Below, piece by piece: positions 18,861 to 62,957 of a stretch of DNA of 64,000 nucleotides (position 1 is its first letter; every line of letters starts with the position of its first letter). Both the position numbers and the translations under genes were made by a program. Origin of the DNA: Zarea fungicola. Lineage: Eukaryota > Ascomycota > Sordariomycetes > Hypocreales > Cordycipitaceae. Where the stretch lies: assembly GCA_900169235.1 (NCBI GenBank), contig FWCC01000135.1, positions 1-64,000 on the forward strand, given 5' to 3'. The notes below the pieces were generated by a model. That model saw only the letters and a program-made list of their open reading frames with translations. It searched no databases and had not been told where the DNA came from.

Positions 18861-19562
18861 ATGATTTCCAAGACGATCGTGGCAGCCATTGTTTTGGCAG
18901 GCTCCAATTCGGGGTCTTCTGCCAAGCTCGTCGCACGCTTCGCCGATCAATACAACCCCTACCAAGGAGACGGCAGCGTTGCCGCAGGATGGCCCGATCA
19001 GTCTGAATGGGGATCATATGAACAACTATGGGATGCAAACGTGCCGTCGATGCAACAGTCGTGTGGTTGGAACAACTGGGGACCTAACAATTCCGATGAC
19101 GAGATCAGCGCCATCAACACTGCTATTCAACAGGTTTCTGGTCAAGCAGGCGTTGATGCTAGGTTCATTCTTGCCATTGTTATGCAGGAGAGCAATGGTT
19201 GTGTCCGCGTACCAACCACAAACAACGGCGTTAGAAACCCTGGCCTTATGCAGTCTCATAATGGCTCAGGTGACTGCGCCGGAGTGAGTCCGTGTCCGTC
19301 CTCAGAGATCGTGCAGATGATACAAGATGGCGTCATTGGCACCGCCGATGGACCGGGCCTGCAGGGTACCATTCAACAAGCAGCTAGCGACACTGGAGAT
19401 TCTAGCGTACGCGAGTTCTATGCTGGTGCCCGCATTTATAATAGTGGTTCTGCTGATTATTCTAACCTCGATGATGGGCTTGGCAGTACTGCTTGCTATG
19501 CTGAGGACGTTGCCAATCGTCTGACTGGATGGACCCTTGCAGGGTCCAATTGCATTGCCTAA
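18861..19562 (+). CDS. secreted lysozyme/SLT-like (GH23-type fold) protein
   Basis: Single exon, 233 aa, with ATG in a favourable TCAAAATG context and a signal peptide (about residues 1-21). The core F-I-L-A-I-V-M-Q-E-S-N-G (catalytic-type Glu110), N-P-G-L-M-Q-S-H-N-G, a Cys-linked loop, and Y-A-G-A-R-I-Y-N-S-G follow the lysozyme-like superfamily found in secreted fungal proteins and distantly in lytic transglycosylases. Bacterial SLTs cleave peptidoglycan; fungal members are poorly characterised, so the substrate (peptidoglycan, chitin or other) is open. It lies between two glucanase genes, which suggests a role in degrading competitor or host walls. Confidence 0.75.
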   Translation: MISKTIVAAIVLAGSNSGSSAKLVARFADQYNPYQGDGSVAAGWPDQSEWGSYEQLWDANVPSMQQSCGWNNWGPNNSDDEISAINTAIQQVSGQAGVDARFILAIVMQESNGCVRVPTTNNGVRNPGLMQSHNGSGDCAGVSPCPSSEIVQMIQDGVIGTADGPGLQGTIQQAASDTGDSSVREFYAGARIYNSGSADYSNLDDGLGSTACYAEDVANRLTGWTLAGSNCIA

Positions 19563-41407: not shown

Positions 41408-44400
41408 CTACCTCTGCTTCGGCATCTTCTTCTCCTCCAGCTCCTCAATGTCCTTCTTCTTGTGAAAGTGCGGCGCCAGCTCAGCCAGCCACTTTGCCTC
41501 TATCGGCATCACGCTGCGCATGTACTCCTTGGTCGTCTGCACCAGCTCAAAATACACCACCATCCTCTCCGGCGGGTCAATCGCCATGAGCACGCTGCTC
41601 GGGTGCACCCACACCGTCGCATTGCTCTTGACCGTCCTGTAACTGTCGCCGCTCCTCTGCAGCCGGGCCGCGTTGGGGAAAAAACCAGCGGTTATGGCCC
41701 TCTTGATCGGACGCAGGTTGTTGGCGCCGCACGTCGACGCCGGGTCCACCTCGACGCGCTCGCACAGCTTGGCCAGCTGATCCCGCACGTCACGGGCGCG
41801 CGTGAGCGAGCGCTGCTGCAGGAAATTCTCCTTGGCCCAGATGGGCGAGAAGTCGCTGTCGACCCACTGGTTCCAGACGTTGAGCAGCGTCAGGTGGTCA
41901 CCACCATCCTTGACCGTGAAGCGGTTGCGCGCGCTGTCGGCGTGAATCTTTTTATCCTTGGGCCGGAAGAAGAGCGCCGACGCCTCGCCGAGCATCGACA
42001 CCACCGAGAGCACCTCCTCCACGCAGCCCTCTTTATCTGCCGCGATGACAGCCTTGGCGAGCATGGGGTCCGTGGGGAACTCGGCCATCTGGCGGCCCAG
42101 CTTGGTCAGCTCGCCCTTGTGATTCAGGCCCTGCAGCGCAAAGAGCTGGTTCAGGGCGCCGATGAGGGCCTCGGTCGGCGGGGGGTCCATAAACTCAAAG
42201 TCGAGCAGCTCGTTGATGCCGAGCGACTTGAGCTGCAGGACGACGCTGTTGAGGTTGGTGCGCTGGATCTCGGGCGTGGTGGACTCGTCCATCTCGTTCA
42301 TGTAGGCAAACTTGGTGTAGAGACGGAAGCACTTGCCCGGACCGACACGTCCGGCACGACCGCTGCGCTGGTTGGCCGAGGCACGGGAGCAGGGCACGAC
42401 GACAAGATTCGACATGCCCGTCGCCGGGTTGTACACGTTTTCCTTTACGTAGCCAGGGTCAATGACATAGACGATGCCGTCAATGGTCAGACTGGTTTCG
42501 GCAATGTTGGTGGCGAGAACGACTTTGCGAGCGCCTTCGGGCGTGGGCTCAAAGATTTTGGTCTGCAGCTCAGACGGCAGGTTGGCGTAGATGGGACAAA
42601 TGACGAGTTCCTTGATGCGGCTGCCGAGCTTCTTGGCTGTTTCGGCAATCTCCAGCTCGGCCGCCTCAATCTCGTCCTGACCAGTCAAGAAGATGAGAAT
42701 GTCGCCCTTGTCTTGTGTAGTGTGGATTTGGAAAACGGTGGTAATGGCCGCGGCGAGGTAGTTTGCCTCGGGTGCGGGCGTGTAGTAAATATCAACAGGG
42801 TACCGACGACCGGGGATGTTGAAGATGGGCGCGTCGTCAAAGTACGAGGCAAATTTCTCGGCATTCATGGTGGCAGAGGAAATGAGCAGCTTCAGGTCCC
42901 TGCGTTCTCGAGACAGGTCCTTGAGCAGGGCGAGGAGAATATCGGTGTGCACAGTACGTTCGTGGGCTTCGTCAATCATGAGGGCCGAGTAACCGGCCAA
43001 GTCGGGTTCCGTCATGAATTCTCGCAGAAGCATACCGTCAGTCATGTACTTGAGGACCGTCTTGTCGCTAGTGCTGTCCTCGAAACGGACCGAGTAACCA
43101 ACCTCGTTGCCAACCTTGACGCCGACTTCCTCGGCGACACGAGTCGCAACACTCATGGCGGCGACTCGACGGGGCTGGGTGCAGCCAACTTTGAGGCCGT
43201 TTTTTGTGTAGCCAGCCTCATGGAGGTACTGTGGAAGCTGTGTCGTCTTACCGCTACCGGTTTCACCAACAATGACGAGCACTTGGTATTGCTCGAGGGC
43301 GGCGATGAATTCGTCTCGGTATTGGTAAATGGGCAGACTCTTTCGGGTTTCTTGAATGGACAGTGCCTTTTTCTCGGCGGCGTCAAGCTGCTGCTCGAGG
43401 AACCGCTGCTCAGCATTCATGCGCTCACCGGGTAGGCGAGAGTCGAGATTCCAGTTGATGTACTGGGAATCATCCATGACATAGTCGTATTCGGTATTCT
43501 CCAGCTCTGGGCGGGAAATCTGGGCCTTGGCCTTGAGTGTCTGCTCCCTCTCCCACTCTTCGTGCTCGGTAACAAACTTTTCCTGGCCGAATTCGTCTTT
43601 TTCAATGTATCGTTTGTATAGGGCCTCCTCCTTTTTCTTCCTGTCCATTTTGCCCTTTTCGGTAATGTAGTCTTCTGGCATGACATAGCCATCGCGGTGG
43701 TCGTCAATTTTGAGGCGTTCCTCGGCAAGGCGCAGAATCTCTCTGTTTTTGGCAAAATCTGCCTTTTCCCTTTCGGAGAGTCGAATACCGCTCTGCATCT
43801 CGGCCGTCTCTTCGGCGACTTGCTTGCGCAGGAGTGCTAGTCGTTCTGCTTCTCGCTTCTTGAGGTATTCTTGTCGCGACCGCTCGCGCAAATCTGGCAG
43901 GGCGGCGTCTCGAGCGGCAGCATCGTCTCCAAGGCGTCGTCGTGCTATTGATTCGCCATCGCGGTGGTCCTTTTTAGAGCGGGAGTCGTCCTTTTCCTTT
44001 AATCGTTTGGAAAAGGCGTCTCGCTCTTCCTGGTCGCGCCGACGGTCGCGCTCCTCCCTGGCGCCATCTGAAAGGTCCTCATCAGCGGGTTCTTGGGGAG
44101 TCAGCTTGACCCGTTTGCTGGCAGATTCTTGAAATTCGGGCTCTTCTTCTTCTTCTTCTTGCTCGTCGGACGGAGGCTCCTCGTCGGCCCAGCGGTCGTC
44201 AAATGCGGTGTCGTCGCGTTTGCGATAACTTTTAGATGTGTGGGCGCGGCGGGGTGACCTGGAGCGGCTGCGGTGGCGATGCCTAGAGGATTTGGAAGAT
44301 TTTTCGTCTCGACTCTTGTCTCGACTCTTGTCTCGACTCTTGTCTCGATCGTGGTCTCTGCGGTGGCTGCGGTGCTTCTTGCCCTTGGATACTTTTTGAG

Positions 44401-44452
44401 GGCCGACCTCGCCGTCATCCATGGGGATGAAGGCATATTTTTGGGAGCTCAT
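41408..44452 (-). CDS. prp2: pre-mRNA-splicing DEAH-box RNA helicase Prp2/Cdc28
   Basis: Single exon, 1014 aa, as expected for Prp2/DHX16. The N-terminal 150 residues are an RS/RD-rich and acidic tail containing the repeated K-S-R-D. Walker A is G-E-T-G-S-G-K-T-T (residues 396-404), the D-E-A-H box is at 494-497, and S-A-T is at 526-528. The second RecA domain has T-N-I-A-E-T-S-L-T and Q-R-S-G-R-A-G-R. Winged-helix, ratchet and OB-fold regions follow (V-V-P-C-S-R-A...W-V-H-P-S-S-V-L). The helicase remodels the activated spliceosome before the first transesterification, in the nucleus. It shares a 1.6-kb divergent intergenic region with the Nem1-like gene. Prp22/Prp16 paralogs are less likely because of the N-terminal M-x-E-D-Y-I-T-E-K block and the length. 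Confidence 0.93.
44308..44345 (-). repeat. 12-bp coding tandem repeat in the prp2 N-terminus
   Basis: Three near-exact copies of TCTCGACTCTTG encode D-K-S-R repeated in the RS-like tail. The length of this tract is likely variable between strains. Confidence 0.75.
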
Positions 44453-46053
44453 GCCGGTGTGGCGGCTGACGCTATGTAGATGGAGCTTGAGCGCGGTCTC
44501 TTCGTTTCGCCGTCGTTTCGTCGGATTGAGGAGCTGGGAAGAATTGGGTTGCCAGTGATGTTGTACAGATGTGCGCTGCTGCCAGAACTTTTTGGATGGA
44601 GGTTGAAAAAGTAGCGGCTGAGCTGCCGCCTGGCGATGGCCCCACTGGTCTGGTGTACTTGGACAATGGTAGGACAGGGTGTATATGGTAGCACCACAGC
44701 AAGCGCTGCCGCAGTTTGAAAATATTGAAAATATTAGATAATTTAGAGTAAATTACTCGATTTTTATTGGATATAGTTTCCATTGATTGGATTTTTATTC
44801 TTGGTGAAGTGGCCATTGCAATACACAGTCACGCGTCCCGACTTGCCAGGAACATAATGCAGAGTAAAATAATACACAAGAAATATACAGAAAATTTGCA
44901 ATAATTTAGAATAATGTACCATGCATTTTTCGGCAATTGAAAGTCTTCCAGCAGAGTTGGGGTGGATGGACTAAATGCTGAAGTTGTAGGAATCTCGGAA
45001 GCGGCTAGGCGTGGACTTTAAGAGGCCGGACAACTGGCCGACTAGCCGGCTTTAAAATAAACTTTGTTCCATTCAAAACGGAACGGGAGATAATGTGGCT
45101 TGCCAGTTGGTATCCTTCCGTTTAACTACCGAGGCAAAGCGCCGCATGAAGGTATCTCTGTCCATGGGCCTCCACCATGGCATGGAGCGCTGCAAATAAT
45201 AAAAGCGTGTCGCAGTCCATGCCAATAGCGATGCCTGGGATAAACCAACGACTGATATATACGTGTATATATAGGTAGGTAGGTAGTATACGACTTTGTT
45301 ATTCTATCCGGAACAGGAATCAGAAATCCGGCGGGTGTTGAAGCCGTCTACAGCGGGGCTCACCCAATTCTAGCGCCCAACACCTTTTGGCGTACGGAGC
45401 AGTGGTGCCGGTAAGGCCCTGGAATGCCTGGAATGCCCTGAAGATGTACCTACAGCATGCCCTATCAAGACAAGCGGAGCCCCCAAAAGACAAAATCCAA
45501 CAGCCGTGCCGCGCATGACTTTGCTAGTGGATGACTTTTGCTGGACTATAGCCGGTGGCTAAGAATGCCCCATCACTGACGCTCCCTCAAAACTCAACCG
45601 CACCATTCCCGCTCCCCTCGCATCGCCACACCCAGTCTCTCCATTCCAGCATCCAGCATCAGCATCAGCACCAGCACCAGCACCAGCACCAGCATCCAAG
45701 CGAGCATCCACGATCCATCTCGCACCGTATATTCGCTCATAGACACATACACCCCCCGACATCCAACCACACTCCATCCCATTCATTGAATTGATTCACC
45801 GTACGCGACCACATTACTGCAAAATTAGCCCGCCCTGGCGTCATCGGCATAAACCGGTCCAAGGCATCCGCGCCTCCGCGACACGCCCGCCATAACTACC
45901 TGCCGCATTCTCTCGCCCATTCTGTCCAGCTCGTAGCCCTGCCATCTGTCCCTCGAATCGATACACCCGAGTTCCCGCTCACGCGACGCCAGCCATACAC
46001 TGTACTGTGCCCACGGTTCCCCCGGCCCGTGGCTGGTCGCCCTTGAAGCCAAC
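44453..46053. other. divergent promoter region of prp2 and nem1
   Basis: About 1.6 kb between two divergently transcribed core genes. It holds a CAGCAC microsatellite (45648-45695) close to the nem1 start, GTAG repeats near 45272, and a C-rich leader. Confidence 0.55.
45648..45695 (+). repeat. CAG/CAC-type microsatellite in the nem1 leader
   Basis: About 48 bases of CAGCATCAGCACCAGCAC-type trinucleotide repeat, roughly 360 bases upstream of the nem1 start codon, probably in its 5' leader. Confidence 0.8.
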
Positions 46054-54753: not shown

Positions 54754-57700
54754 ATGAGTTCAGCACTCCCAGTGGCCGGCGGCTCTCAGAATGAACGCCC
54801 CGGACCTTTTGCTCCAGAATTCTCCCGACAAGCAAGGGGCAGTAGACTCTGTCAAGTCTATCCTCCTCCTGGGAGCGATGTTGAGACAGAATTCGACATC
54901 ATTGCCATCCATGGCCTCGACACAAAGTCGCCGGACATGTGGATATGGAAATCCGGTGAATTAAGCGTTAACTGGCTTCAGGACTCCCACATGCTGCCCG
55001 AACGGTTTCCAAAGGCCCGAATCTTCACCTGTGACTGGCCGGCGGAGCTGTGGGAGGATCCAAACTTTGTCCAAAAGACATTCGTTGAGCTCGCTCGGCA
55101 CCTGCTCGCTGCCATTAAAAGCCGGCCTACCGTGGCAAATGACCCGGATAGAAAAATTGTCTTTATTGCGTCGTGCCTCGGCGGCATCATCTTGATGAAA
55201 GCCCTCGTGATGGCTGACAACGAGTATCTCTCTGTAAAGCAAGCGACAGGCGGCATCGTCTTTCTTGCCACGCCGTTCCAGGGTTCTTCATTCCAAGATG
55301 TGGCCAAGTGGGCCGAACCGGGTCTCAAGACTTGGGCTTTGCTGAAGAATAAAAAGGTGTCTAATCTGCTCCAATATGCGATATCAAATGACGATGTGGA
55401 TGAGCTTGTTCGCAGCTTTACGGGTTTCTATGGACTTAACAATGTCTCCAGAAATGTTGCTACTTTCTACGAGACCAAAACATCGAGTCTCCCACGCAAA
55501 TTATTCTCGCGTCTCCCGGCCTCGATGTCTCAACAGAAACTGGTGAGAGCCATCTAAGTGCTTTTTAACTGCTACACACTACTCAAAACGTAGATAATAG
55601 AAGCTAATATTCACTGGCTAGCTGGTCAATCAGCGTTCTGCCACCCTACAAATGGTCCAACATCCACTCTCTATTGATGAATCTCACGTCCGAATGAACA
55701 AGTTTCGTGGGTCCGACGACCCGGGGTACATTTCTGTTACTGGACGACTAGAGATTATCTTACGCAGCATTCTCGAGGACTCTCCACTCCAGAACGCGGA
55801 TAATTTGTTATGCAGGGATCGTTATTCTTTGAAAAATCTCGCAATTGAGCGACTTTCGGGCGACTCGCTTCCCATGAAGCACTGCTATATCAATCTAACC
55901 ATTATAGAGCAGCTTAGCGACAAGGCAAATCAATCAAAAGAGGGAGAAGAGGGAGAAGAGGCACAAAACCTTTCAGAGTTCTCGCTGCTTCGCCGATTAA
56001 AGGTTCAGATGTCGGCCGGGGACACTCACGTCCCTTTGCCGAACCTATTTGAATCCCGCAAGACACTCGACGGCCAGACAAGACCACCAAAACGAATCCT
56101 GATCCGTGGGCGCGCAGGCGTGGGTAAGACTACTCTATGCAAAAAGATTGTGTATGAATTTACCCAAAAAGGAATGTGGCGGGACTTATTCCGTCGCGTG
56201 CTTTGGCTGCCGTTACGGAACCTGAAAGGCAGGGGCCAGAGGGGCGGATACACCTTCGAAAATTTATTTGTTGACGAGTATTTTCCTCACCATCCGGAAC
56301 GCAACACACTTGCCAACGCATTGTGGGGTGCCATACACGATGGCAAGACACTGTTTATTCTCGATGGCCTGGACGAAGTGTCACGAGACTTGCATGATGG
56401 CATGCTCCAATTTCTAACCGTGCTTTTAAATCAGCACAATGTCATTATCACTTCCCGTCCAAATGCAGCACACCTGATTGAGTTGGATTCTGTTGATCTT
56501 GAGTTGGAAACCATTGGGTTCTACCCTACTCAAGTCACGGCATATATCACAAATGCGTATACCAACCGAGAAACAGACCAATGCGACCTGGAAACGGTTG
56601 GTGAAATTGAGAGGTTTCTCGAAAGTCATCCAATTATGCAAGGTCTGATGAGAATTCCAATCCAGCTGGATGCACTCTGCTACACATGGAATGGATCCGG
56701 TGACAAAGCCGTGCCGGAGACCATGACAGCTGTTTACTCAGACATCGAGGATAGATTATGGAGAAAAGATGACGTCAATCTTGGCAACCATCCCCGGTCC
56801 CGAGTACAGGGCCTTCGCGAGGGTGAAATCCTTAAATATGTTGAAGATGAGCTTCGTCGTCTTGAAGTCCTCGCCTTCACTGGAATGCACAACGACGTCA
56901 TAGACTTTACCCCAAAGCAGCGCAACGCTATCTTTTCGAAGTTCGACTGGCATTACAACAGGCGCTTCTTTGACGAGATACTGGAACGTGTTTCTTTCCT
57001 CCGGGCATCAGACCCATCGCTAGACCATGACGACCAAAACTATCACTTTTTGCACCTAACTTTTCAAGAGTATTTTGCGGCAAAGTATTTCGTACGGCAA
57101 TGGGAAGCTAGGAAACCGCTGAAGTGTCTTGAATTTGAGAAGGAAAATATAAACGACATCGAACCAGTTGCTTTTCTTCAAAAGCAAAAGTACAGTGCAC
57201 GTTACGATATCGTGTGGCGCTTTGTAGCCGGCTTGCTCAACGCCACAGAGACGCTCCGCTTCTTCGAGACGATTGAAGACGAGCCGCGTGACCTCTTGGG
57301 GCCTACACACGAACGGTTAGTAATGCACTGCTTGAGTGAGGTTAGCTCTTCAAGAGACTTGCCGATTCGATCAAAACTAGAAGCAAGGCTATCACACTGG
57401 CTTCTCCTTGAATATCGCTTAACAGGATCATTACTCTTGGCGAGAGAACTAGAGTGCCCTAAAAAAGCGCTGCTGATGGCCCTGAAGACAGATTCTCGCT
57501 ATGGAACAGATGAACTGGTGAAAAGGCTCCAGCGGTCTGGTAGACACCTATCCGAGGCGGTTGTGTCAGCCTTGACAGTACTGCTCAGAGACGATGACTA
57601 CCTTGTGAGGGCTTCTGCTGCCAACGCCTTAAAAGACCAATCGAACCTACCAGAGGAAACATTTGACGCGCTTGCAGTGATAATTAGGGATGAGGACGAG

Positions 57701-59800
57701 TACACGGTGTCTTATGCTACCATTGCCTTACGGAGACAACCAAGCCTACCACAGTCGACGGTTGATATACTCACAGCGCTGCTCAGCGGTACGGAACCAC
57801 ACGTGCAATCTAGAGCTGCCTGTGCTTTGGGGGGGCAATTGAATCTACTAGAGCCAACTACTGCGGCGCTAGCGGCCATACTTTGGACAGGGGATAGTTT
57901 TGTACATGCTTCTGCCGCCACGACCTTAAGTGTCCAATCAAGCCTGCCAAAGTCAATAACTGGCAGGTTACAATCGCGACTTGAGTCTCCATACTGGTTC
58001 ACGCGATCTTGCGCTGCTGTAGCCCTGGGAACTCGATCGAATCTACCAAAGACAACGATTGCTGCACTGGCAGAGGTAATTTTCTACAAGAACTGGTCTG
58101 ACCATGTTCGGGAAGAACGGCGCTCGTCTGCAGCGAGTCTACCAGAGACGACAATCATGGCACTGGCGTCTTTAATCACCGACAGCGATAACGAAATCAA
58201 GTCGGGCGCTCAACGTGTCTTGATGGACCAGTCGAGCATACCAGAGGCGGCTGTTACTATGCTGGTAACTATGCTAACAGACAAAGAGGAAAGTACACGG
58301 AGGATGGCAAATGACATCTTGACGGGCCTTCCCAACTTACCAGAGGCGGCGTTTTCTTTGCTCGTAGCCATGCTAAAAGACGAGAAAATTTCCACAAGGG
58401 TTTTGGCCACTCGACAGCTACGGCCCAACGCAAGCAAATCAAAGTTGCCTGAGCAGGTGGTTATAGCACTGGTACCAATGCTTAAAGACGAGGAAACAGT
58501 GGTAAATTTCAAGGCAGCTACAGCCCTACGTTCCCAGTCAGATCTGCCACGGGAAGCGGTTACTGCGCTTTTATCGATGATAAAAGACAAGGATATAAAT
58601 ACGCGGTCTTGGGCCACGGTAGCTCTACAAGGTCAACCGAACCAATCGCAGGCGATTAAAGCGCTAGTGGTGTTACTCAGGGAGAAGGAATCGCTCGCAC
58701 GATCCTGCGCCTTTGTGGCCGTAGAAGAGCATACGAACCTACCAATGGAAGTCATTGAGGAACTGGTGGCGCTGCTGAAATTCAAAGACGCAAAGCGGCA
58801 GTTTAGTGCCGCCAAGGCCTTAAGTTCCCAGTCAAACTTACCAAAGGCAGTTGTTACTACGCTTGCGGCCATGTTAAAAGAATCGGATAGAGATGTATGT
58901 GGTTGGGCCGCTCTAGCCTTGCAAAGCCAACCGGACCTACGAGAGGCAATAACTATACCACTAATATTGGCACTGGAGGTTAAAGACGAGAACAAGCGGT
59001 ATCTTGCAATGAATGTCTTACGCAGGCAACAAAACCTGCCGGACGAGGCAGTTTATTTGCTTCTAAGTATGTTTGGCGACGAGCGCTTTCGTCAATATGA
59101 CGCTGCCGAGCTGGTAGGGGCCCAATCCCACCTACCAGAGGCAGCAGTTACCTCGCTTGTCACAATGCTTGGATATGAAGAAATGCATTACAACGCCGCC
59201 AACGCTTTAGGTGGTCAATCAAAGCTACCAGATGCAGCGGTCACCTCGCTTGTGGCCCTGCTCGGAGATGGGAAAATAAATGACATGGCCGCCAAGGCTT
59301 TGCGAGGCCAATCGCAGCTGCCAGATGCAGCGGTCACCGCTCTTATTGCGATGTTCAGGAAGAAGGACAGATACCAAAACGAAGCTGCCAATACCTTGGA
59401 AGCCCAATCGAAACTATCAGACGCAGCAGCCATGGCACTTTTGGCGATACTGGAAGAAGATGGGGCCCTGCGCTCTCATGCCGCCGAATGCTTAGGCGAA
59501 CGTTCAATTTTACTAGACAAGGTTCTCGAGGCTATGGGGTTATTTCTGGAACCCGAAAGACAGGCTGAGTCTCCGAGCCGTACCGTGCGAAATCTTCAAC
59601 TCGTGGAACTTTTGTATGAGAGTCTATTACGCCGGAGTTTTAGGGAACAATTCAGTTGGTGTATTGATGAGAGCTCTCGGTTTTGCATAAACCAAAGCGA
59701 TGGGCGCCAGATATCTTGTTTCGATAGAGGCACGTTCCTAGCTGCCATCAGCAAAGGTCGCCAGCTGGAGACGGCCCATGGCCTTGACTTATGGAGATAG
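54754..59800 (+). CDS. NLR-type protein: hydrolase-like, NACHT, HEAT repeats
   Basis: Exons 54754-55542 and 55622-59800, with a 79-nt intron (GTGAGA...GCTAG, phase 0). The product is 1655 aa. Residues 40-250 are a serine-hydrolase-like domain (I-A-I-H-G-L; elbow I-A-S-C-L-G-G, with Cys141 where Ser is usual). A linker follows with L-V-N-Q-R-S-A-T-L and N-K-F-x-G. The NACHT NTPase has Walker A G-R-A-G-V-G-K-T-T at about 426 and Walker B L-F-I-L-D-G-L-D-E at about 507; F-L-H-L-T-F-Q-E-Y-F-A-A is near 738. Residues about 902-1576 hold about 20 HEAT-like repeats of 31-34 aa with an S-x-L-P-x-x-x-V-x-x-L signature. Such fungal NLRs mediate non-self recognition or heterokaryon incompatibility; the ligand and output of this one are unknown. 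No frame damage is seen. Confidence 0.88.
57538..59560 (+). repeat. about 20 coding HEAT-like repeats (about 99 bp each)
   Basis: Each unit encodes 31-34 residues with the motif Q-S-x-L-P, then A-L-x-x-x-L-x-D and A-A-x-A-L. Units near 59125-59400 (L-P-E/D-A-A-V-T-S/A-L) are the most alike. Overall divergence is moderate, not the near-identity seen in fast-evolving WD or ANK arrays. Confidence 0.85.
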
Positions 59801-60950: not shown

Positions 60951-61483
60951 GTTGTCTACGTAGGTCTCGTCTGGATAAACACTCTCTCAGTCTTCAAAGA
61001 GCTACTTCCTTCAATGATAGTGTCTCCCTGAACAAGTAATCAAAGCACTTCACTTCTTTTCTAAAGAGATTTAGAAAAAAGTCTTGTCCGACCAGAGTCG
61101 CTTGGGAAAATCGCCGCATTATATACATGTAGTTTCCGAGCAGAAAGTGGATCGCCGCGCTTTTCTTGTAGTTCTTTTCCTCTTTAGCTCGAGCTTTTTT
61201 ATCGACTAACCGCATTCAGCCACTCTATTAATGAGTAGCAAATTTTGCCCTACGCGTTTTGAAAAACGTCCTACACGCTATACTGATTCTGTAATACTCA
61301 CTATAAAATTAGGTGGAGAAAGTATATAGTTGTTCTAAATTAAGTATAGCGTGTAGGGTATAATTCAAAATGCGCGGGGCAAAATTCGCCACTCCATTCA
61401 TCGACTAACCCGATTCATTACTACCTGTAGTTCAATGCACACCAGCAACGTGGTGGCCGTACGCACTCATGCCACATGCCACA
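60951..61483. other. intergenic with a MITE
   Basis: 5' flank of the small gene at 60464-60950 (an open minus frame 60994-61215 has no support), then the MITE at 61226-61402. Confidence 0.5.
61226..61402. mobile_element. MITE with terminal inverted repeats of about 52-60 bp
   Basis: The left arm (61233-61284) and right arm (61343-61394) are inverted repeats matching at 42 of 52 positions without gaps; both contain AATTTTGCC, TTTTGA and CCTACACGCTATACT. The spacer is only 58 bases. The similarity fades outward for about 8 more bases. A near-repeat ATCGACTAACC lies in both flanks (61201 and 61400). No transposase is encoded, so it is a non-autonomous element of unknown superfamily. Confidence 0.8.
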
Positions 61484-62790: not shown

Positions 62791-62797
62791 GGTGAGA

Positions 62798-62809
62798 TGG
62801 CCGAGTTGG
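62798..62809 (+). promoter_or_regulatory. Pol III A box of the tRNA-Leu gene
   Basis: TGGCCGAGTTGG fits TRGYNNARNNGG exactly. It ends at the first base of the D-loop insertion, so the insertion leaves the box whole. Confidence 0.85.
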
Positions 62810-62865
62810 TAAGCAACCCTCAACAATCGTCGACTCATTCAACCAGTGTCTAACAACTTCAAAAG
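62809..62865 (+). other. spliceosomal-intron-like insertion in the tRNA D-loop
   Basis: Starts GTAAGC, contains GTCTAACAA (branch-site-like CTAAC at 62850-62854) and ends AAAAG, 11 bases after the branch C. Its 57-nt length lies in the 48-79-nt range of the protein-gene introns here. Excision at GT...AG rejoins GAGTTG to GTTATGGC, a regular D-loop with the conserved GG. The boundary may shift by one base because of a repeated G. Confidence 0.75.
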
Positions 62866-62922
62866 GTTATGGCGCCAGGTTAAGGTTACCTTAACATGTT
62901 TCCTGGTGGAGCAATCCTCGTG

Positions 62923-62933
62923 GGTTCAAATCC
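62923..62933 (+). promoter_or_regulatory. Pol III B box of the tRNA-Leu gene
   Basis: GGTTCAAATCC matches the B-box consensus GGTTCRANNCC. It lies about 113 bases after the A box, longer than in an uninterrupted tRNA but within the range tolerated by TFIIIC in general. Confidence 0.85.
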
Positions 62934-62950
62934 CACTCTCATCAGAGTTC

Positions 62951-62957
62951 TTTTTTT
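62951..62957 (+). terminator. Pol III terminator, T7
   Basis: Seven T residues start seven bases after the discriminator of the tRNA-Leu gene. Confidence 0.85.

Follow-up and report, generated by a model that had tools for sequence, protein, structure and literature searches.

Can a nuclear tRNA gene carry an intron of the kind that the spliceosome removes? The question arises from a tRNA-Leu(AAG) gene of Zarea fungicola, interrupted at two sites, which lies in a stretch of 64,000 nucleotides of a draft contig (FWCC01000135.1, positions 1 to 64,000, hereafter the window). Introns of nuclear tRNAs are held to be the task of the tRNA splicing endonuclease, and the substrates of the spliceosome are mostly transcripts of RNA polymerase II (Pol II). 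An earlier note, made from the letters of the window, had reported that the gene is broken in its D-loop by 57 nt of the form GTAAGC...CTAAC...AG, which direct reading confirmed, and that a separate 15-nt intron sits in the anticodon loop, which is present as described and also appears in the ARAGORN call (Table 1).

The anatomy of the gene can be read directly from the DNA. With its intron option, ARAGORN assigned the unspliced gene to tRNA-Arg(cct) with a 76-nt intron; once the exact 57-nt GT-AG stretch was taken out, the call changed to tRNA-Leu(aag) with a 15-nt intron, so that the proposed restoration of the tRNA by exact GT-AG removal was borne out. The A box and the terminator, which the note had considered intact, hold up as well—both the A box and the B box are kept, a run of seven T residues (T7) follows the gene, and the final G of the A box TGGCCGAGTTGG is at the same time base 1 of the insertion. 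A leucine tRNA model scored the gene at 77.6 bits, a value that is partly circular given that the gene's own spliced form is among the model members. Neither Rfam, at the gathering threshold or with E values up to 1, nor ARAGORN in its bacterial setting returned any tRNA from the window. Elsewhere in the window, a match to MIR6140 was recorded on the minus strand (61236-61391; 44.6 bits, far below the gathering score of 140) at a long hairpin, which is perhaps an inverted-repeat element.

Table 1. Features of the interrupted tRNA-Leu(AAG) gene, in window positions.
Feature	Position	Strand	Basis
tRNA-Leu(AAG) gene, unspliced	62791..62944	+	direct reading, ARAGORN, Leu-model score
Exon 1: acceptor 5' strand and 5' half of D-arm	62791..62808	+	direct reading; identical in 3/3 interrupted Leu(AAG) genes
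A box TGGCCGAGTTGG	62798..62809	+	by the A-box consensus
57-nt spliceosomal-type intron in the D-loop	62809..62865	+	exon comparison, strict-motif scan
5' splice site GTAAGC	62809..62814	+	
Branch motif CTAAC, ending 11 nt upstream of the intron end	62850..62854	+	
3' splice site AAG (RAG type, uncommon)	62863..62865	+	
Exon 2; anticodon AAG at 62882-62884, then G37	62866..62885	+	
Canonical anticodon-loop intron, 15 nt	62886..62900	+	direct reading, ARAGORN
Exon 3: anticodon 3' strand, variable arm, T arm, acceptor 3' strand, A73	62901..62944	+	
B box GGTTCAAATCC; distance to A-box start 125 nt	62923..62933	+	
T7 run, Pol III terminator-like	62951..62957	+	

How readily such an insertion would look like an intron by chance was gauged within the window itself. 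Under a strict definition, an intron has to start with GTAAG[CT], close with AG and contain CTRAY shortly before its 3' end. Of the 383,628 segments with a length of 57, 58 or 62 nt, taken from the two strands together, a single one qualified, and this segment is the D-loop insertion; a looser definition was satisfied by 29 segments of the same scan. Removal of the insertion in any of four registers yields one and the same product, with GT...AG being one of the four, so that the rate per segment has to be multiplied by about four to give the chance level.

We also examined the draft genome as a whole (43,144,919 bases in 456 contigs, with the window on contig C123). Among named proteins, its DEAH helicase has the nearest matches in Aphanocladium album, Akanthomyces lecanii, Cordyceps fumosorosea and Beauveria mimosiformis (90-92%), which are members of the Cordycipitaceae, as is Zarea. 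A BLAST search with the window gene recovered the gene itself, a second copy on contig C276 (C276a, 91%) and four partial matches on contig C450. Outside the D-loop insertion, all 97 of 97 letters of C276a are identical to the window gene—including the 15-nt intron—whereas the two insertions, each 57 nt long, agree at 46 of 57 positions (0/97 differences outside versus 11/57 inside; Fisher p = 9e-6). A third interrupted Leu(AAG) gene (L092) emerged from an exon-based motif search with eight matches, the other five of which were judged by eye not to be tRNAs; it lies on C276 near 28160 on the minus strand, 4 kb from C276a and in the opposite orientation. Its insertion occupies the same D-loop site and has the form GTAAGT...CTAAT...CAG, with a length of 62 nt and a very different body: the alignment score was 8.0 against the window insertion (500 shuffles: mean -3.0, maximum 9.5) and 12.0 against that of C276a (shuffle maximum 9.5). 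The 39 readable exon letters of this copy are all identical to the other two, while its 3' half is replaced by NN, probably an assembly gap, which also cuts its canonical intron. At the three interrupted loci, alignments of the 150-bp flanks score no higher than the top one of 200 shuffles, and T7 stands behind the tRNA end in each case.

Pattern searches with the individual exons led to the same set of genes. The exon-2 pattern, allowing up to three mismatches, was found at seven places, namely the three interrupted genes, three genes on C450 and one non-tRNA match (three mismatches, judged by eye); the exon-1 pattern was found at ten, with exact matches in the three interrupted genes and three mismatches in each of the other seven, which are non-tRNA by eye. 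On contig C335, tandem-like units near 18956 and 19246 on the minus strand (L081, L082) contain recurring TGGCACAG..GTAAGC and GTAAGTG motifs and were likewise judged by eye not to be tRNAs. The C450 matches belong to four tRNA-Leu genes arranged in tandem at intervals of about 200 nt (43300-44600; L070), three of which are Leu(AAG) according to ARAGORN and the fourth, called Stop(tta), is read here as Leu(CAG); the D-loop insertion is absent from all four. The earlier note had called for a search for uninterrupted copies and for the same insertion; of the six Leu(AAG) genes identified in this draft genome, three are uninterrupted and three interrupted. In two paralogues the exons and splice signals are retained beside an altered intron body, which helps to make the D-loop insertion of the window gene a well-supported spliceosomal-type intron, as judged from sequence comparison.

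A second, independent case was found in the gene for tRNA-Leu(UAA) on contig C98 (27449-27604, minus strand; L101), which has a long variable arm and A73. ARAGORN assigned the unspliced gene to Thr(tgt) and gave it a 75-nt intron. Its insertion of 58 nt (GTAAGC...AACTAAC...GCAG) lies between T34 and A35 and therefore splits the anticodon; without these 58 nt, the call becomes Leu(taa) with a 17-nt canonical intron, and the mature form folds into a cloverleaf. A single removal register works for this insertion, and in all four insertions GT...AG stands at boundaries that restore the mature RNA, although for the D-loop insertions three other registers would do the same. Runs of T4 and T5 occur inside the Leu(UAA) unit, at positions 31 and 49, and the three complete interrupted genes are directly followed by runs of T7, T7 and T11. 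Genome-wide BLAST gave one match, with no second copy of the gene. Contamination as its source is less likely, as a neighboring frame on C98 matches Zarea fungicola (76% over 64% of the query); this frame had two matches in all, the other with 100% over 24%. The gene was also sought in viral contigs, with 0 matches, and in prokaryote genomes, where three matches to an 18-mer were taken for chance. The reading of the window insertion is thereby supported by its sequence, by two paralogues with a changed intron body and by the independent Leu(UAA) gene, in which the same kind of insertion recurs at another position.

To place these genes among the leucine tRNAs of the fungus, a census was drawn from at least 63 tRNA matches in the genome, the letters of 57 of which were read (L001-L030 and L101-L127). 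GT-AG introns are present in four of the 11 nuclear tRNA-Leu genes identified in this still incomplete census: three of the six Leu(AAG) genes, all at one D-loop site, and the one Leu(UAA) gene found, between positions 34 and 35—another Leu(UAA) gene may have escaped if its D-arm is very different. After splicing, each of the three complete genes presents a class II cloverleaf, A73 and a leucine anticodon (ARAGORN: Leu(aag), Leu(aag) and Leu(taa)). Their short second introns lie directly 3' of nucleotide 37, and the GT-AG insertions lie elsewhere, in the D-loop or at 34/35. A D-arm pattern with at most one mismatch was found at 14 places, of which eight were exact: four Ser(GCT) genes (for two of these ARAGORN gave Thr(agt), read here as Ser), the Leu(UAA) gene, two Leu(CAA) genes and one Leu(UAG) gene. 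The Leu(CAA) and Leu(UAG) genes carry solely anticodon-loop introns (47, 35 and 41 nt). Nuclear Ser(NGA) genes were met neither with two D-arm patterns nor among the 57 matches read; these genes may have another D-arm or be interrupted. The pattern TGGCCGAGNGGT had 64 matches and led mainly to one dispersed repeat. Among 20 regions read, 17 (L134-L148, L151 and L152) have a repeat end in common, ...TGGCCGAGTGGTTACCTAGCACCCTCGTCCTTACA, with an A-box-like motif inside and a final CA, which may be a transposable-element terminus, and 36 other matches lie outside both the regions read and the loci already identified.

Among the four insertions, the donor is GTAAGC in three and GTAAGT in one, the branch motif is CTAAC in three and CTAAT in one (ending 11, 11, 10 and 11 nt upstream of the intron's 3' end), the acceptor is AAG in two and CAG in two, and the lengths are 57, 57, 62 and 58 nt. 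As a yardstick we used published introns of Fusarium, 2,022 of which have the donor consensus GTAAGT, CTRAY in 91%, YAG in 94% and RAG|R in 3.5%, with lengths of 42-529 nt and a median of 57 nt (PMC5677156). By this measure, all four insertions have a GTAAGT-like donor, a CTRAY motif and a length typical of the clade, and the two AAG acceptors are the weak point of the spliceosomal reading. An intron-like GTAAGC...CTAAC...TAG stretch was also noticed by eye in a zinc-knuckle-like frame elsewhere in the genome (L078).

From the gene sequences, we consider it quite probable that the four genes carry spliceosomal introns, are functional, probably transcribed by RNA polymerase III (Pol III), and depend on the spliceosome as well as on the tRNA endonuclease; the transcription, splicing, order of events and function of the interrupted genes are inferred as follows. 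Pol III would transcribe the genes from their internal A and B boxes. The spliceosome would then excise the GT-AG intron, restoring the D-arm in Leu-AAG or the anticodon in Leu-UAA, and the tRNA splicing endonuclease and ligase would next take out the short canonical intron after position 37. In Leu-UAA, the spliceosome would have to act first, since the usual endonuclease substrate forms only after the anticodon halves are joined; in Leu-AAG, the same order is a guess based on a contact of Sen54 with the D-arm, reported in a review on tRNA introns (PMC4090602). The earlier note had left a choice between double splicing, a Pol II origin and silencing. Of these, a transcript made by Pol III and spliced by both machineries fits best, given that the A box, B box and oligo-T runs are kept and that a single Leu(UAA) gene is not easily dispensable.

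It is nonetheless conceivable, if unlikely, that the Leu(AAG) genes with an insertion are pseudogenes or silent copies, with Leu(AAG) supplied by the three C450 genes. The presence of these three uninterrupted genes favors the idea, and because of them the interrupted ones may be dispensable; moreover, D-arm insertions are generally supposed to mark pseudogenes, according to the tRNA-intron review (PMC4090602). Against this stands the identity of 97 of 97 letters outside the insertion between loci with unalignable flanks—although gene conversion could also account for the likeness of the exons—and the retention of splice signals in the very different third insertion. Silencing would, in addition, leave the single Leu(UAA) gene unexplained, unless another gene was missed.

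Quite unlikely, in our estimation, is that the genes are spliceosomal substrates transcribed by Pol II, either alone or within a longer noncoding transcript. What is generally known of spliceosomal substrates, mostly products of Pol II, speaks in its favor, as do the T4 and T5 runs of the Leu(UAA) unit, which could stop Pol III, and the widened distance between the A and B boxes (125-127 nt in the interrupted genes versus 70-73 nt in the uninterrupted C450 genes). However, the two boxes are retained and runs of T7 to T11 lie behind the genes, and the three Leu(AAG) loci have no alignable 150-bp flanks in common. In addition, U6 is a Pol III product (PMC10484740) and bears mRNA-type introns in some fungi (PMC5832005).

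That the insertions are ectopic tRNA introns cut by the tRNA splicing endonuclease, with a merely coincidental GT-AG appearance, is highly improbable. Eukaryotic D-arm introns have been described for nucleomorphs and a red alga (PMC4090602), but a donor, branch motif and acceptor with intron-like spacing are present in all four insertions here, the strict motif occurs in 1 of 383,628 segments, and the third copy alters most of its insertion while keeping the splice motifs. A search for bulge-helix-bulge structures found none in the four interrupted genes under a strict rule, but also none in five canonical control introns, and a relaxed rule found them in two of four and two of five, respectively; the case against the endonuclease comes from the spliceosomal motifs and is independent of this search. 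Finally, origin from a transposon fragment, which the earlier note had named as a finding that would overturn its reading, is not supported, and origin from a dispersed element was rejected: BLAST of a 66-nt stretch that includes the insertion reached two places, both tRNA genes of this type, and the third copy came to light through its exons.

If the reading of spliceosomal introns in functional tRNA genes is correct, the spliceosome accepts tRNA precursors and a split anticodon is rejoined exactly—and the genes open a test of whether the spliceosome routinely splices Pol III transcripts. Gene finders for tRNAs can overlook or misname such genes, considering that the generic Rfam search found no tRNA in the window and that identities given by ARAGORN were wrong. 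The only Leu(UAA) gene found has its anticodon split by a spliceosomal-type intron, and on this basis there is perhaps an even chance that the reading of UUA codons in this fungal lineage depends on the spliceosome and then also on the tRNA endonuclease. Were this so, the supply of a tRNA would be tied to mRNA splicing, and splicing efficiency could tune the translation of genes containing UUA, given that five of six window frames counted are poor in this codon (0 or 1 TTA in each of the five, 29 in the sixth). The sixth frame, at 55622-59800 on the plus strand, accounts for 29 of the 32 TTA codons counted; it spans 1392 codons, with a P-loop-like GRAGVGKTT and many repeats, and looks NLR-like by eye.

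In the open-access literature searched, no tRNA gene was reported to contain a spliceosomal intron, and the string 'spliceosom' is absent from the tRNA-intron review, which lists eukaryotic D-arm introns in nucleomorphs and a red alga and supposes other D-arm insertions to be pseudogenes (PMC4090602). As far as that literature goes, the insertions would be introns of a known kind, so far undescribed in tRNA genes. The nearest counterparts are the mRNA-type introns reported in fungal U3 and U6 genes; among small structured RNAs, frequent interruption by spliceosomal introns is known for U3 and U6 alone, according to the same source (PMC5832005). The U6 snRNA and U3 snoRNA introns of fungi resemble those described here in being short GT-AG introns with a branch motif in small structured noncoding RNAs, and in that a single genome can hold both interrupted and intron-free paralogues (PMC5832005); here, however, the host is a tRNA that also bears a canonical endonuclease intron, and one insertion splits the anticodon. 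Canonical nuclear tRNA introns, located after position 37, are likewise represented in these genes (15 nt in the window gene and C276a, 17 nt in Leu-UAA), in contrast to the GT-AG introns, which lie in the D-loop or at 34/35, measure 57-62 nt and contain spliceosomal motifs. The ectopic introns of archaea, nucleomorphs and Cyanidioschyzon merolae share the D-arm site and the occurrence of several introns per tRNA gene, but they are tied to the splicing endonuclease and the bulge-helix-bulge (PMC4090602), whereas the insertions of Zarea fungicola display donor, branch and acceptor motifs.
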